A stretch of DNA of 64,000 nt from Pirellulales bacterium (GTDB lineage Bacteria; Planctomycetota; Planctomycetia; Pirellulales; UBA1268): NCBI GenBank assembly GCA_016779265.1, contig JADHNY010000007.1, forward strand, positions 1 through 64,000. The letters are read 5' to 3'. The position numbers and the translations under genes are program-made. The notes below the pieces were generated by a model. It saw only the letters and a program-made list of their open reading frames with translations. It ran no database searches and was not told the origin of the DNA. Shown here piece by piece: positions 57,343 to 63,848 of this stretch. Numbering within the stretch: position 1 is the first letter of the stretch; each line of letters starts with the position of its first letter.

Positions 57343-58017
57343 TTAGAGCAGTTCGTGGTCTGTCACGAGCCAGCGGTCAGTGTCACTGGTAAACGGGTCG
57401 CGGCGAACCGTGACGTCCAACAGCACCTCGCCTGTGCCCGACTGATCGCAGGGAATACCGAGCGTAACAATCCAGCTCTTCCCCTCCCTATCCTCCGCCC
57501 GCGCCTGTTCAACCCGCGGCTCCACCGCTCCACAGGAGGTGACCGCAGCGATGCTCGGCATCTTGGCGAACTTTTCCCGCACTTCTTTGCCGGCCTCACC
57601 ATCAAGCGGCCCTGACGACTGCGGCATCAACGTCTCAGGGAGCGCGTCGTAGCGACACATCACCAGAGCATCCTCCCGACGCCCTTCTCCGACAGCCACC
57701 ACAAACGCCTCTGCCACCGCAACCGCCCTGCCCTTGGCTCCGTTCAACGAAACCACCTGATAGACACTCGATTGCAGTGCAAAACCGACAGAGAGCGCAA
57801 GGCCCGCAACGGCCGCAAGACGCCCCGCTTTCGGTGCATCCTCTCGCCCAACATCTGCCAGGGCAGCAACCGAAAGTCCGACGCCAATCAGAGGCACCAC
57901 GAGGAACAGCGGATTCGCCACCGCAGCAGCAGCAGCAACGCCGACAACAGCTGCCGCGACCGCCAGCCGGCTCACCGGGAGATAACCGCCCTCGTGGTCG
58001 TGTGTGTGATCTGTCAT
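57343..58017 (-). CDS. Membrane protein of unknown function
   Basis: MTDHTHDHEGGYLPVSRLAVAAAVVGVAAAAAVANPLFLVVPLIGVGLSVAAL hydrophobic N-terminus; start chosen at MTDHTH. Confidence 0.65.
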   Translation of the reverse strand: MTDHTHDHEGGYLPVSRLAVAAAVVGVAAAAAVANPLFLVVPLIGVGLSVAALADVGREDAPKAGRLAAVAGLALSVGFALQSSVYQVVSLNGAKGRAVAVAEAFVVAVGEGRREDALVMCRYDALPETLMPQSSGPLDGEAGKEVREKFAKMPSIAAVTSCGAVEPRVEQARAEDREGKSWIVTLGIPCDQSGTGEVLLDVTVRRDPFTSDTDRWLVTDHELL

Positions 58018-58072
58018 CGCATCTCTCTTCGTACCCATCAACTCTTGGCAGTCAGAACGAAAGCCATCAACC

Positions 58073-58714
58073 CTACTGAGCCGACTCCGCTCCCAAAGCC
58101 TTCGCATTGCCAGCCCGACGATCGCCATACCGCAGCACAAAATCTGCGTTCCGGTCAAAAACGGGAGCCTCGCCCTCTGCAGCCGTGGAAAAAGGCCCGT
58201 CAGGCCCGGTTCCTCCTCGCACCCAGGCAAGCCACTTTCGATCCGGTGCGAGGCCGAGAAACATTCGTGCGTCCGGCGTTGGCTGTACACCTTCGCGGGA
58301 GAGCGGCGTCATATGGAACGTCATCGCGGTGAAACAGACCACCACCCAGGCCGTTAACACTCCGAGCAGCACACCGCCCCCAAGATCGAGCAGCTTGGGA
58401 AAAGGCACGCGAGTCCGAGACATCAGCCAGGTGACAATGCGGAGCACGAGCAGGATCACAAGAAACAAGGCCCACGCAGCGGCAGCATCGAGGAACTGTC
58501 CAAATGGAGGCATGAGACCTCCTTGGTTTTCGCCTCCGTCAGCAACGTTGACGAAGCGGTCACCAAGCGTGGCGAGCGGCTCATACCAGGCAGTCGCCAT
58601 CGTGGCCGCCACAAGGACATTGAGAAACCGCAGCATCCCACCCCAAAGCCGCTCACGAGCGACGAGCCCCGTGACAGCGAGAAACATCACCACCAACAAG
58701 ATTGTGGGTATCAC
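58073..58714 (-). CDS. CvpA-like membrane protein
   Basis: Four hydrophobic segments incl. WALFLVILLVLRIVTWLMSRTRVPFPKLLDLGGGVLLGVLTAWVVVCFTAM, CvpA-like pattern. Confidence 0.65.
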   Translation of the reverse strand: MIPTILLVVMFLAVTGLVARERLWGGMLRFLNVLVAATMATAWYEPLATLGDRFVNVADGGENQGGLMPPFGQFLDAAAAWALFLVILLVLRIVTWLMSRTRVPFPKLLDLGGGVLLGVLTAWVVVCFTAMTFHMTPLSREGVQPTPDARMFLGLAPDRKWLAWVRGGTGPDGPFSTAAEGEAPVFDRNADFVLRYGDRRAGNAKALGAESAQ

Positions 58715-58735: not shown

Positions 58736-60547
58736 TTAGCTCTTCTGAAGCACCCGCTGCCGCTCTTCGAGAGACGTCTCCCCGGCAAGCACCATGTCGA
58801 GTGCAGCCACACCCAGCGGCCGCATACCATCCTTCACCGCCGCCTGTGAAAGCAGTTTTCGGTCACCCTTGAGGATGGCCTTGGAGAAGTTCTCACCACC
58901 AGCGAGTTCAAAGATGCCTGTGCGACTGGCATATCCAAGACCTCGACAGAGTCGACAGCCGATCGGTGAGGCACGCCACAGCTGTGGCACTCGCTCCACC
59001 GGCACCCGCAGCTTCGCAGCCAGGTCTGGAGGCGTCGCAAAAGCCTCTCGGCATCGAGGACAGAGCCGCCGCAGCAGCCTGCCTGCAAGCACACCAACAA
59101 CGGCGTGCGAGAGTGCCTCACGAGAAACGCCAAGCTTCAGCAGCTGCGCCACGGCATCAATCGCATCGGTTGCTGGCACGCTGACAATCACCAGCTGATC
59201 GCTCGCAGCCATCTCCACCAGCCGCTTGGCGAGTTCTGGATCGCTGAGATCCCGCGTCACAATGCCCTGCGGATACGAACGCATGGCCTGCGTGAGTGCA
59301 TCGAGCGGTGAGATGCCCCCCGCCGCGTCCCAGGTGCACCGCTTCACATTCTGGATCTCGATCGGGGGATCGTGTGCATCTTCAAGAGAGGCAAAATCAC
59401 GGACCATGCGGTCAGCGGCATTCACCACAACGTCAAAGGTTGTGGGAAGGCCATTGGAGGCCGCCGCTGCCAACACGATCAGACCCCGGTCGTAACTCAA
59501 CAGGGTCTGCAGCTTCTCAGCGACCTTTTCGGAGACACCCAGCTCTGTGATCGTCGTCAGCGGCTTGATCGGCAGCTGCAGACTGACCACTGCACGCTCC
59601 AACGCATCGCTCGAGGCCACCTCCAAGCTGAGCGGGATCTTCTTACCATCCGACAGGGCAACACATTTACCTTGGCGACGTGACTTCTTGCCCGGCACAT
59701 CGATGCGACAGACACGCTCCAGTGCAGCAACAGCACCAGCGGCTGCTTTCGGAGTTGGAGCGGGTACGTTCTCCCACTCTTCGTCCTTCTTGCTGGCGAA
59801 GACTCCCTGGGCCGCCGGCTTTCGCGGCGTCGACCAGACCCCATCAACGAGCTGTCGCACCGTTGCGGTGGCTGCGTTTCGCTCCACCATCAGCTTCATG
59901 GACCGAGCCGCAATAGCGATGGAGAGCAGGCCTGCTGCATCCTGGGCGGCCTGCGCCTCATCCTCACTGTTGGCCATCATCGGCGTGCCGTCGGCATCGG
60001 CCAGCTGCACCTCCGGCAGTGAGTCTTTCACTTCCTTCGGTGGACGCTTGATCTTGATGCCCATCGGACGCAGCGCATCGGCCGCACAATCGAGAATGTG
60101 TCCGGGCGTGAGCACTTTTTCATGATTCGGCGCTCGGCCGTTCCGCACAAAGACGTACGTAAAGGTCGGCACCGCCCAGGCCACCCCCATGATCGCGAGC
60201 CCTGCGATCGCCGAGGGAATCCACCAGGCAATCACCGCTGCCAGGAAAAATGGGAACGTCATCGCCATCGGCCAGACAGTGGCCGATAGATTCCAACGCC
60301 CCATGTCTTTGGCAACCCAGCTCGAGCAGCCTGCCCAGAGCGGAATCCAGAGCCACCAGAGCACTACCAGCAGGATCGAAAGCCCACCCCCTGGGCCACG
60401 CTCAAACCAGTTCTTTGAATCTGCAGGCCAGTCGGCTGCAAATACCTGTGAGGCGACCAGCATCCCACAGCACGCCAAGGCCAGTGCTTGAGGAGAGAGC
60501 CCACCGGGAACCGCTGTTAGCTTTGCTGCTCTGTTCACGTGCATCAA
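58736..60547 (-). CDS. GspE/PilB-family ATPase homologue with N-terminal membrane segments and degenerate nucleotide-binding motifs
   Basis: SYDRGLIVLAAAASNGLPTTF (Walker A position), tetra-Cys zinc motif CPRC...CRLCRGLGYASRTGIFEL; 4-bp overlap with pilT. Confidence 0.8.
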   Translation of the reverse strand: MMHVNRAAKLTAVPGGLSPQALALACCGMLVASQVFAADWPADSKNWFERGPGGGLSILLVVLWWLWIPLWAGCSSWVAKDMGRWNLSATVWPMAMTFPFFLAAVIAWWIPSAIAGLAIMGVAWAVPTFTYVFVRNGRAPNHEKVLTPGHILDCAADALRPMGIKIKRPPKEVKDSLPEVQLADADGTPMMANSEDEAQAAQDAAGLLSIAIAARSMKLMVERNAATATVRQLVDGVWSTPRKPAAQGVFASKKDEEWENVPAPTPKAAAGAVAALERVCRIDVPGKKSRRQGKCVALSDGKKIPLSLEVASSDALERAVVSLQLPIKPLTTITELGVSEKVAEKLQTLLSYDRGLIVLAAAASNGLPTTFDVVVNAADRMVRDFASLEDAHDPPIEIQNVKRCTWDAAGGISPLDALTQAMRSYPQGIVTRDLSDPELAKRLVEMAASDQLVIVSVPATDAIDAVAQLLKLGVSREALSHAVVGVLAGRLLRRLCPRCREAFATPPDLAAKLRVPVERVPQLWRASPIGCRLCRGLGYASRTGIFELAGGENFSKAILKGDRKLLSQAAVKDGMRPLGVAALDMVLAGETSLEERQRVLQKS

Positions 60548-61698
60548 CGAACTCCGATGCCCTTGAGCGCCATCTGCAGTGCCTCTTTGTTTGGGGCGAT
60601 TGCAAGGGCATCTTTCCGATCGATCAGTTCCTGGTCGATGAGGCTCTTGAGGCTCATCGTGAAGTCTTGCATGCCTTCCTTCTCCGACTTCTTGATGTGG
60701 TCGGGAAGCGACTCATCCTGACCTTCCAGGACATACTTCCGCACCAGTGGGTCAAACAGCATCAGTTCAACCACCGGCACACGACTCACCCCTGGCTTGA
60801 TCGACTTCAGCAGTTTCTGAGCCACGATGCCCTTCATGTTGAAGGCCAAGGCACTACGAATCGCACCACGTTCTTCCTCTGGAAACAGGTCGAGAATACG
60901 CGTGATCGTGGTCGCCGCACTGGAAGCGTGGATCGTTCCAAACACGAGATGCCCTGTCTCCGCCGCATGCACAGCGGTCATGAACGTTTCATGATCTCGC
61001 ATCTCACCGACAAGGATGATGTCTGGGTCTTCTCGCACCGCATGTTTCATGCCGACCGAGAAGTCGATCACATCCTGCCCCACCTCACGCTGATTGATCA
61101 GGCACTTGTCTTCCGTGAAGACAAACTCGATCGGATCTTCGAGGGTCAGGATGTGCTTGCGGTAGTTCTGATTGATGTAGTTGAGAATCGAGGCGATCGT
61201 CGTACTCTTGCCCGACCCGGTCACACCTGCGAGCAGGATGAGGCCCTGATCAAAATGGCAGAGTTTCTCGATCGCCGGAGGAAGAAACAGCCCTTCAAAG
61301 TTCGGGATGCTGTTGTTGACGCGGCGGGAGACCATCCCAAGCGCTCCCTGCTGCCGCAGGATGTTGACTCGAAATCGCCACACCACGCCATCGACCTCGA
61401 CGGTGTAGGCAAAGTCAGCACCGCCATCACGCTCGAGGATCTCCATGCGACGCTTGTCGAGCATCGGCATGATCAGCTGTTCCATCTTTTCTTCGCTGAT
61501 CACATCCGCCTTGAGGGGCTGCAGTGAGCCCTTGACCCGAACGTAGGGAGGCTTGCCAGACTTCAGATGCAGGTCGCTACCCTCGAGCTTGACCAGGGCG
61601 GTAAACAGCCTGTCAATCTCAAGCTTTCGGCGTTTGCCTTCCGCGGGAACCGGAGCAGGAGCAGACGCCTGAGGAGGCGGAGTCGTGATCGTGGCCAT
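60544..61698 (-). CDS. pilT: Type IV pilus retraction ATPase
   Basis: Walker A GVTGSGKST, Asp box LTLEDPIEFVF, Walker B IILVGEMRD, His box HLVFGTIHASSA; start at MATITTP. Confidence 0.93.
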   Translation of the reverse strand: MATITTPPPQASAPAPVPAEGKRRKLEIDRLFTALVKLEGSDLHLKSGKPPYVRVKGSLQPLKADVISEEKMEQLIMPMLDKRRMEILERDGGADFAYTVEVDGVVWRFRVNILRQQGALGMVSRRVNNSIPNFEGLFLPPAIEKLCHFDQGLILLAGVTGSGKSTTIASILNYINQNYRKHILTLEDPIEFVFTEDKCLINQREVGQDVIDFSVGMKHAVREDPDIILVGEMRDHETFMTAVHAAETGHLVFGTIHASSAATTITRILDLFPEEERGAIRSALAFNMKGIVAQKLLKSIKPGVSRVPVVELMLFDPLVRKYVLEGQDESLPDHIKKSEKEGMQDFTMSLKSLIDQELIDRKDALAIAPNKEALQMALKGIGVR

Positions 61699-61700
61699 GG

Positions 61701-62561
61701 TCACACCGAGCGGGACGAGGAATCGGACAGGGAGGCAGTTGACGGGGCCGACGACACATGCGTTCGATCTCGAGCATCCTCGACAGGACGAACCGGAATC
61801 CCCCGTTTGGCAAACAGCTGCTTTACCTCACGGATCGTACACTGCCCGAAGTGGAAGATGCCAGCGGCCAGCGCCGCATCCGCCATCCCCATGCCAGGGC
61901 CGCGATCGACGGCATCAGCAAGGTGTTCTGGGCAACCTGCACCGCCGCTGGCGACGACCGGAATCGACACGGCCTGACTGACTGCTGCAGTGATCTCAAG
62001 GTCGTAACCGTTGCGGGTGCCGTCACGATCCATGCAGGTCAACACAATCTCGCCCGCACCGAGCTGTTCCACCTGTCGGGCCCAGGCCACCGCCTCCAAG
62101 CCAGTCGGCACACGACCACCGTTGATGAAGACTTCCCAGACTTCGCGACCGTCGCGGACCACCCGCTTCGGGTCGATGTTCACCACCGTGGCACAGCTCC
62201 CAAGTCGATCTGCCACCGCAGTCACCAGCTCCGGCGTTTTCACAGCTGAGGAGTTGATGCTGACTTTCTCAGCACCAGCCTGCACAAGTTCAGCAGCATC
62301 AGCGAGCGTGCGAATGCCACCACCGACGGTGAACGGCATAAAAATCGTCTCTGCCACCTGACGCACCATGTCGAGCATGATCGACCGGCCTTCATGGCTG
62401 GCGGTGATGTCGAGAAAAACGAGCTCGTCAGCACCCTCCGCTTCATACCTGGCTGCAACGGCAACGGGATCGCCAGCATCGACGAGTTCGAGGAACTTCG
62501 TTCCTTTCACCACCCGTCCTTTTTCGACATCGAGGCATGGGATGATTCGCTTCGCGAGCAT
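61701..62561 (-). CDS. hisF: Imidazole glycerol phosphate synthase subunit HisF
   Basis: [60 protein letters not shown]; Ser-rich C-terminal tail. Confidence 0.95.
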
Positions 62562-63466
62562 CAACAAGCCTCCTTTCCTGCCGTCTCGGCCGGACCGCCA
62601 ACGAGGCCAACGTCAGGACTTGAGGCTGTGGCATAGAGCTTCTTGGGAATCCGTCCGGCAAGAAATGCCTGTCGGCCCGCCTCGCAGGCCGCTGCCATTG
62701 CACGAGCCATCCGCAGGGGATCCGCCGCATGGGCGATCGCTGTGTTGAGGAGCACGCCGTCGACACCGAGCTCCATCGCAGCTGCGACGTCACTGGCTGT
62801 TCCCACGCCAGCATCGACGATAACAGGATAGGTCGGATCCCCATCTTTCAGGTATTCCATGCAGATGCGGAGGTTGTTGGCATTGAGGATGCCCTGTCCT
62901 GAGCCGATCGGGCTGCCTGCGGGCATCACACTTGCCGCGCCCGCCTCCTTGAGCCGACGAGCGAGCACGGGATCATCGCTGGTGTAGACCAGCACCGCGA
63001 AACCGTCGTTGACAAGCTCCGCCGTGGCCTCGAGCGTGCCCACGGGATCAGGCAGCAGCGTCTTGGTGTCGCCGAGCACCTCCAGCTTGACCCACTCACT
63101 CCCAGGATTGCCAAGGTCTCGCAGCAGTTCACGCCCCAGCCGAGCAACCCGCACCGCCTCGTCTGCGGTAAAGCAGCCTGCCGTGTTGGGTAAGAGCGTG
63201 TAGCGATCGGTGTCGAGGTGGTCGAGGATGTTTTCGCCTGCCGCATTCACCAGCCGTTCCCGACGCACCGCGACGGTCACGCAGTCTGTCCCCGAGATCG
63301 CCAGGCACTCGGCCATCTCCGCGTAGCTACGGTATTTGCCTGTGCCTACGACCAACCGGCTCGCAAACTGTCGATTGGCCACGACCAGCGGTGGGTCGCG
63401 AGGATCTTCAGCAATGGGGCTCGGCGATCCAGTGGCAGCCGGCGAAGTCGTCGGAGAAGTGGTCAT
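62561..63466 (-). CDS. thiG: Thiazole synthase
   Basis: [62 protein letters not shown]. Confidence 0.95.
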
Positions 63467-63599
63467 CGATACGACGGTTTTCAAAGGAGAGATCGGGTGG
63501 CGGCCGCGGGAGCTGCCTTAGTCAGCCCCGATCATACGACACCCAGCCAGCCGCCCGAAAAAACCGACGGAGAGGTGCCACGACACACACTCGACGGCT

Positions 63600-63848
63600 T
63601 TAGCCACCGCCGACGAGGGTCACGATCTCCAGCTGGTCGCCATCAGCAAGCATCCGCTCACCGAGCAGACGTCGCGGCACCACGGTTCGATTGATCTCCA
63701 CCGCCAGAGGCCGGCCAGCGAGTCCCAGCCTCTCAAGCAGGTCCGTCACGGCTGAGGCTGCGGGCATCCGCAGCGACTCACCGTTGACGACCACAGACAC
63801 TTCGGCCGCCCCGTCTCCGGAGGCAGCTGAATCGGGCGAAGGGCACAT
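63600..63848 (-). CDS. thiS: Sulfur carrier protein ThiS
   Basis: VVVNGESLRMPAASAVTDLLERLGL...VAVEINRTVVPR-type sequence ending in VGGG (C-terminal Gly-Gly). Confidence 0.9.
   Translation of the reverse strand: MCPSPDSAASGDGAAEVSVVVNGESLRMPAASAVTDLLERLGLAGRPLAVEINRTVVPRRLLGERMLADGDQLEIVTLVGGG

Follow-up and report, generated by a model that had tools for sequence, protein, structure and literature searches.

A predicted membrane-anchored pseudo-ATPase of the PilB/GspE family encoded next to an intact PilT in Pirellulales

In a stretch of 64,000 nucleotides, hereafter the window, we found a gene for a predicted membrane-anchored pseudo-ATPase of the PilB/GspE family, labelled PSB, which lies directly behind a pilT gene with intact catalytic motifs (Table 1). 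Its sequence gives good support to a PilB/GspE-fold protein that has lost the motifs for both nucleotide binding and hydrolysis. Our preferred reading, to which we assign a probability of roughly 0.55, is that PSB would dock or adapt this PilT together with a neighboring CvpA-type membrane protein. The home order is called Pirellulales because the named relatives of the linked PilT among the matches listed (Pirellula, Rubripirellula, Thermoguttaceae and Pirellulales MAGs) are members of it.

Table 1. Coordinates of PSB, its predicted segments and motif remnants, and its neighbors in the window.
Feature	Position	Strand	Remark
PSB, membrane-anchored pseudo-ATPase of PilB/GspE family (predicted)	58736..60544	-	602 aa from ATG 60544; 603 aa from TTG 60547
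Signal-like/first hydrophobic helix, predicted	60437..60493	-	residues 19-37
TM helix 1, predicted	60296..60376	-	residues 58-84
TM helix 2, predicted	60221..60277	-	residues 91-109
TM helix 3, predicted	60134..60211	-	residues 113-138
Walker A remnant AAAASNGLPTTF	59435..59470	-	Lys to Leu
ASP box remnant DFASLEDAHD	59369..59398	-	Glu389 kept in 95% of home-order homologues
Walker B remnant PQGIVTRDLSD	59240..59272	-	GEIRD lost
His box remnant VIVSVPATDA	59162..59191	-	His lost
Tetra-Cys zinc domain, Cys496/499/531/534	58946..59062	-	invariant
PilT, hisF-linked, catalytic motifs intact	60544..61704	-	stop codon overlaps ATG of PSB
CvpA/Colicin_V family membrane protein	58073..58714	-	conserved next gene
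Small membrane protein ORF315, no Pfam family	57343..58290	-	conserved fifth/last gene in most home-order loci
hisF (imidazole glycerol phosphate synthase)	61701..62567	-	conserved upstream neighbor of pilT across the phylum
thiG	62561..63484	-	overlaps hisF
thiS	63600..63848	-	

The preliminary description of this DNA had recognized a GspE/PilB layout with a tetra-Cys zinc motif, and we confirmed both the open reading frame (58736-60547, minus strand) and the motifs as they had been quoted. Residues 332-597 match the Pfam family T2SSE (PF00437) at 4.8e-27, with 95 bits against a cut-off of 24.9, and the NCBIfam models for TfpB, GspE and PilB give E-values of 1e-26 to 1e-32, although their scores of 94-112 bits stay far below the curated equivalog cut-offs of 630-850 for an active extension ATPase. 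The PilT/PilU retraction ATPase model TIGR01420, which gives the window PilT 400 bits, gives PSB only 18.5, under the family cut-off of 319. PilF, GspE and PilB were the first matches to PSB when PDB sequences were searched by phmmer. Structure prediction likewise returned the expected GspE fold: an AlphaFold2 model built from 43 orthologues has a mean pLDDT of 86.4, and its top Foldseek matches are all PilB, PilF or GspE (TMt 0.89 for 5it5, 0.89 for 5zfr and 0.78 for 1p9r), with a TM-score of 0.89 to both Thermus and Geobacter PilB. Pfam and Foldseek thus agree on the RecA-like N2D/CTD fold of this family. The platform-binding N-terminal domain (MshEN/N1) was not found in PSB, which has no MshEN match at E<=1, unlike the canonical PilBs of the same genome, which carry it.

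The catalytic motifs had been described as eroded, and the comparison bears this out across the order. In PSB the Walker A position reads AAAASNGLPTT in place of GxxxxGK[ST], Walker B reads VTRDLSD without GEIRD and its catalytic Glu, the His box reads SVPATDA without its histidine, and the DxHxEP motif has gone. A first survey of home-order orthologues, preceding the larger set, found none with a Walker A Lys, GEIRD or STLH. We then compared 79 Pirellulales sequences with 54 intact homologues: Gly361 and Lys367 of Walker A, Gly432 of Walker B, His451 and His458 are conserved at 100% in the intact homologues and at 0-3% in the home order, where GEIRD is kept in 0/79, Glu433 in 16%, and Arg most commonly replaces the Walker B Gly (60/79). 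Taken more widely, the near-invariant columns of the intact homologues that are kept in only 0-9% of the home order comprise D218/H220/P223, G361, K367, Y396, Q403, G432, G450, H451 and H458. An intact Walker A Lys in close relatives, which the preliminary description had named as a mark of recent pseudogenization, was looked for and is lacking in 78 of the 79 sequences; the sole keeper (L151) is a divergent second copy of a tandem pair, devoid of TM helices, with a GKST P-loop and with Walker B and His box gone.

Other residues tell the opposite story, since Cys496, Cys499, Cys531, Cys534, Arg493, Glu547, Glu595 and Arg598 are kept in 100% of the 79 sequences, and the set kept at 94-100% extends to R490, L491, G541, R542, G574, G589 and T591. 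Because columns that are fully conserved in intact homologues drop to 0-3% while the zinc cysteines stay at 100%, the losses are not a matter of chance. Zinc stabilizes the hexamer in EpsE and Thermus PilF (PMC5061722), and with the zinc cysteines and C-terminal residues retained it is plausibly the ring architecture that selection keeps in PSB. The conserved N2-domain arginines at columns 307 and 322 remain in only 34% and 13% of the home-order sequences, and ring formation could be the weaker for it.

Could nucleotide still be bound or hydrolyzed at a remodeled site? Gly366 is invariant, the ASP-box Glu is nearly always retained, and a new invariant motif, D379-R380-x-x-R383, has appeared in the home order near the old nucleotide site; with the Lys, the catalytic Glu and the His box all gone, and Arg commonly in place of the Walker B Gly, we nevertheless regard this as very unlikely. 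Still less credence goes to the reading of PSB as a decaying gene or annotation artifact without function, which the eroded motifs and the faster divergence of PSB than of PilT across the order (26-40% vs. about 70% identity) might invite. In nearly all of the 59 relatives searched, the best match to PSB reads as an open frame (26-86% identity), none of the home-order best matches being interrupted, and six close pairs gave dN/dS of 0.06-0.16, against 0.04 for PilT when the window was paired with G003. As judged from sequence, PSB is therefore under purifying selection, given these ratios, its invariant non-catalytic residues and its order-wide retention, and the catalytic loss is fixed, not recent decay. 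An apparent absence of PSB from the same-genus genome G002 was rejected, as the contig ends there just after pilT.

The hydrophobic N-terminus noticed at the outset was recovered in the AlphaFold2 model, which has helices at residues 19-37, 58-84, 91-109 and 113-138. Most orthologues share the arrangement of a signal-like segment, three hydrophobic helices, a positive-rich R-N motif and a cytosolic part, and by positive-inside reasoning the C-terminal domain of PSB would lie in the cytosol. Anchoring is not universal, as a few Pirellulaceae-type loci have copies without TM helices. Tandem PSB genes occur at some of these loci (L151:4253-7601, L193 and L196), and in L151 and L193 one copy has TM helices and one has none; a TM-less copy of about 450 aa stands alone at L152-L156, L194 and L198.

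Comparison of the locus, all of it within the Planctomycetota, placed PSB in a wider frame. A cluster hisF-pilT-X-cvpA is found phylum-wide, and the X of most other orders and classes is a membrane-anchored PilB with its motor motifs intact (mPilB; e.g., L068-L076 and L126-L131), with the same locus and TM N-terminus as PSB but with GPTGAGKST, GEIRD and STVHAND, that is, the Walker A, Walker B and His box that PSB lacks. This intact protein is best regarded as the PSB orthologue. As other orders and classes carry it at this locus, comparison of loci indicates that membrane anchoring predates the catalytic loss and is ancestral to a phylum-wide PilB subfamily; the anchor that the preliminary description had associated with the pseudo-ATPase is supported as a prediction, and it is not tied to the catalytic loss. 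A tree of 141 rows, built after the motif columns had been taken out, joins the home-order sequences in a single group with full support (SH-aLRT 100), and erosion is also seen outside the order (L132, L134, L145, L149/L150, L077/L078 and partly L125). Parsimony counts at least four erosion changes on this tree, a quick one with long branches that leaves the exact number uncertain, and catalytic erosion of mPilB probably arose several times, about four.

The eroded copies outside the home order are all found beside PilT, and seven copies without an adjacent PilT are all intact. This pattern is suggestive and fits PilT taking over as motor, with few independent contrasts behind it, six of the seven PilT-less copies belonging to one family.

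The adjacency claimed earlier is conserved, PilT lying directly upstream of PSB in 63 of the 67 home-order loci with enough flank, and PilT, described as intact, is so both in the window and among all 113 partner PilTs, which retain Walker A, Walker B and His boxes (113/113). An overlap of 4 bp had been reported between the two genes; the overlap stands, but that length needs the TTG start, and the conserved form is TGATG with 1 nt in common. ATG 60544 is the most likely start of PSB because the pilT TGA overlaps it in this way, and TGATG (35) or TAATG (20) marks the PilT stop in 55 of about 76 home-order loci. The order thiG-hisF-pilT-PSB-cvpA-ORF315 recurs in the home family and hisF-pilT-PSB-cvpA across the home order; ORF315 itself probably starts near 58020, as its conserved part begins at about residue 90. 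Pilin, platform and secretin genes are absent from the conserved cluster and are found elsewhere in the genome. The P. limnophila secretion cluster Plim_0401-0410 was considered as a counterpart and set aside, as its identity with the PSB locus could not be established.

The hisF link is itself common to pilT, and simple operon conservation may lie behind the adjacency. Fifteen class-level genomes without a high-scoring X still have the hisF-type PilT; in the 12 that were inspected (L283-L294) hisF lies upstream in 11, and a PSB-like or CvpA-like gene was not found within 1.5 kb downstream of PilT. With hisF-pilT kept where X and cvpA are missing, PilT is the stable element, and X is intact, dead or gone. 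It follows that PSB would be an accessory of PilT and not its obligate partner; of the non-hydrolyzing partner first proposed, the pseudo-ATPase, the anchor and the coupling stood.

We know of no link between CvpA and PilT or PilB. Enterobacterial CvpA is encoded at purF and has been tied to bile-salt resistance (PMC6705877), whereas the window CvpA lies beside PSB and is a member of the CvpA/Colicin_V family by Pfam (PF02674, 34.9 bits vs. a gathering score of 29.3). Of 76 home-order loci, 62 have a CvpA gene downstream of PSB, as have 34 of the 35 other loci downstream of X. In the home family a CvpA-like membrane protein likewise comes after intact membrane-anchored paralogues, the profile match being sub-threshold for L183/C104 (Colicin_V, 27.0 vs. 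29.3 bits), weak to clear for L054, L057, L058 and L159, and negligible or absent for L056, L062, L065 and L066, where the resemblance comes from reading the sequence. Among the loci of these paralogues (L183:15726-18328, L054:2530-5262, L057, L058, L062 and L159), several of the CvpA-like neighbors have a C-terminal stretch like an EF-hand/dockerin Ca-binding loop (DxNxNxxxDxxE). The pairing holds without PilT at the f21 loci (L068, L071, L072, L136, L137 and L139), so that mPilB and its CvpA-like protein look like a module of their own, and CvpA appears as strong a partner of PSB as PilT. One may then ask whether the main partners of PSB are CvpA and the small membrane protein encoded downstream, the three forming an envelope complex to which PilT is a mere operon neighbor. 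Both the PilT-less pairings, at the f21 loci and among paralogues such as L054, L057, L058 and L159, and the survival of hisF-pilT after joint loss of PSB and cvpA agree with this, yet PilT stands immediately upstream in nearly all home-order loci and is mostly start-stop coupled, and we judge it rather unlikely.

The same genome holds a canonical T4aP cluster (two MshEN-PilB, PilT, PilC and pilin), a third PilT, an orphan T2SSF, about 30 N-methyl proteins and secretins. The T4aP-cluster PilT is extended at its N-terminus by about 190 aa (L186:4733-6421), PilT frames of 500-620 aa recur in G005-G012, and further stretches upstream that match the PilT N-terminus suggest that this domain has been duplicated. 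The orphan T2SSF (PilC/GspF-like; L182:5851-7128) lies beside metabolic genes, a lone T2SSF outside the T4aP cluster recurring in the family, and is a candidate platform for scattered motors. At L184:9117-12433 another intact membrane-anchored PilB lies divergent beside a protein of the DUF1559 (SBP_bac_10) group whose N-terminus resembles that of N-methyl pilins; in P. limnophila no paralogue family is larger than DUF1559 (PMC10632474).

With the T4aP cluster, intact anchored paralogues and a further PilT at hand, PSB might instead serve as a pseudoenzyme that regulates other traffic ATPases (T4aP PilB/PilT or the anchored paralogues) by joining or stacking on them, without docking the neighboring PilT, and PilU offers a precedent as a PilT-dependent partner and retraction ATPase (PMC6762196). 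We consider this unlikely, for it is the hisF-linked PilT, not the T4aP cluster, with which PSB is stop-start coupled, and the intact anchored paralogue is family-level whereas PSB is order-wide.

Returning to docking of the neighboring PilT, we infer that PSB would form a PilB-like ring or partial ring at the cytoplasmic face of the inner membrane, with its own TM helices and the CvpA-type protein fixing it there. The co-translated PilT hexamer would bind this ring as the only ATP-burning motor of the pair, and PSB would pass the motion or position of PilT to its membrane partner. The fold, the catalytic loss, the predicted anchor, purifying selection, the operon with its stop-start coupling, the intact PilT and the intact form at the same locus speak for such docking. 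Against it stand the several lineages in which hisF-pilT persists without PSB and cvpA and PilT needs no PSB, the TM-less copies at a few Pirellulaceae-type loci and the largely lost N2 arginines; no difference was shown at a matching surface between PilTs beside eroded and beside intact forms. A doubtful extension would be an envelope machine specific to Planctomycetota, whose PilT hexamer would work on a membrane-fixed PilB-like ring and a CvpA platform, these two taking the place of the soluble PilB/PilC pair of pili, and whose ring in Pirellulales would be a dead structural stator. The target of the machine may be other than a classical pilus, such as the envelope or DUF1559/N-methyl pilin-like proteins; the idea that it assembles the DUF1559 proteins is drawn from one neighboring gene.

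The fold and family of PSB are already known. In the open-access literature, outside which most subscription journals lie, we found no description of a dead PilB that is conserved, membrane-anchored and coupled to PilT and whose locus holds intact orthologues elsewhere, nor, by title or abstract, of the hisF-pilT-mPilB-cvpA cluster, and no full-text paper joining pseudoenzyme, type IV pil and ATPase. PilB/PilT-superfamily traffic ATPases are normally judged by their motor motifs; here structure and anchor appear to have been kept and the motor discarded more than once in a phylum, which sets the structural role of PilB apart from its catalytic one, makes the eroded copies natural loss-of-function mutants and points to the phylum-wide cluster. 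Transposon-library genetics, available in planctomycetes such as Planctopirus limnophila of the order Planctomycetales (PMC10632474), makes the role of PSB testable.

Among known systems, the PilB/PilF/GspE extension ATPases (PF00437; 5it5, 5oiu, 5zfr, 5tsh and 1p9r) have in common with PSB the core fold (TMt 0.75-0.89), the tetra-Cys zinc domain and the C-terminal domain, whereas PSB is without the catalytic motifs and MshEN/N1 and has a signal-like helix and three TM helices. PilU resembles PSB as a second protein of the traffic-ATPase family that may work only with PilT, but it is PilT-like, catalytically competent and free of a TM anchor, whereas PSB is PilB-like, anchored and bereft of its motifs. 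ArlH/FlaH, a soluble protein with a KaiC-like fold that binds ATP, is not of the same family and is likened to PSB by analogy, as the partner of a traffic ATPase. In the archaellum it binds that ATPase and is needed for motor assembly (PMC4858521).
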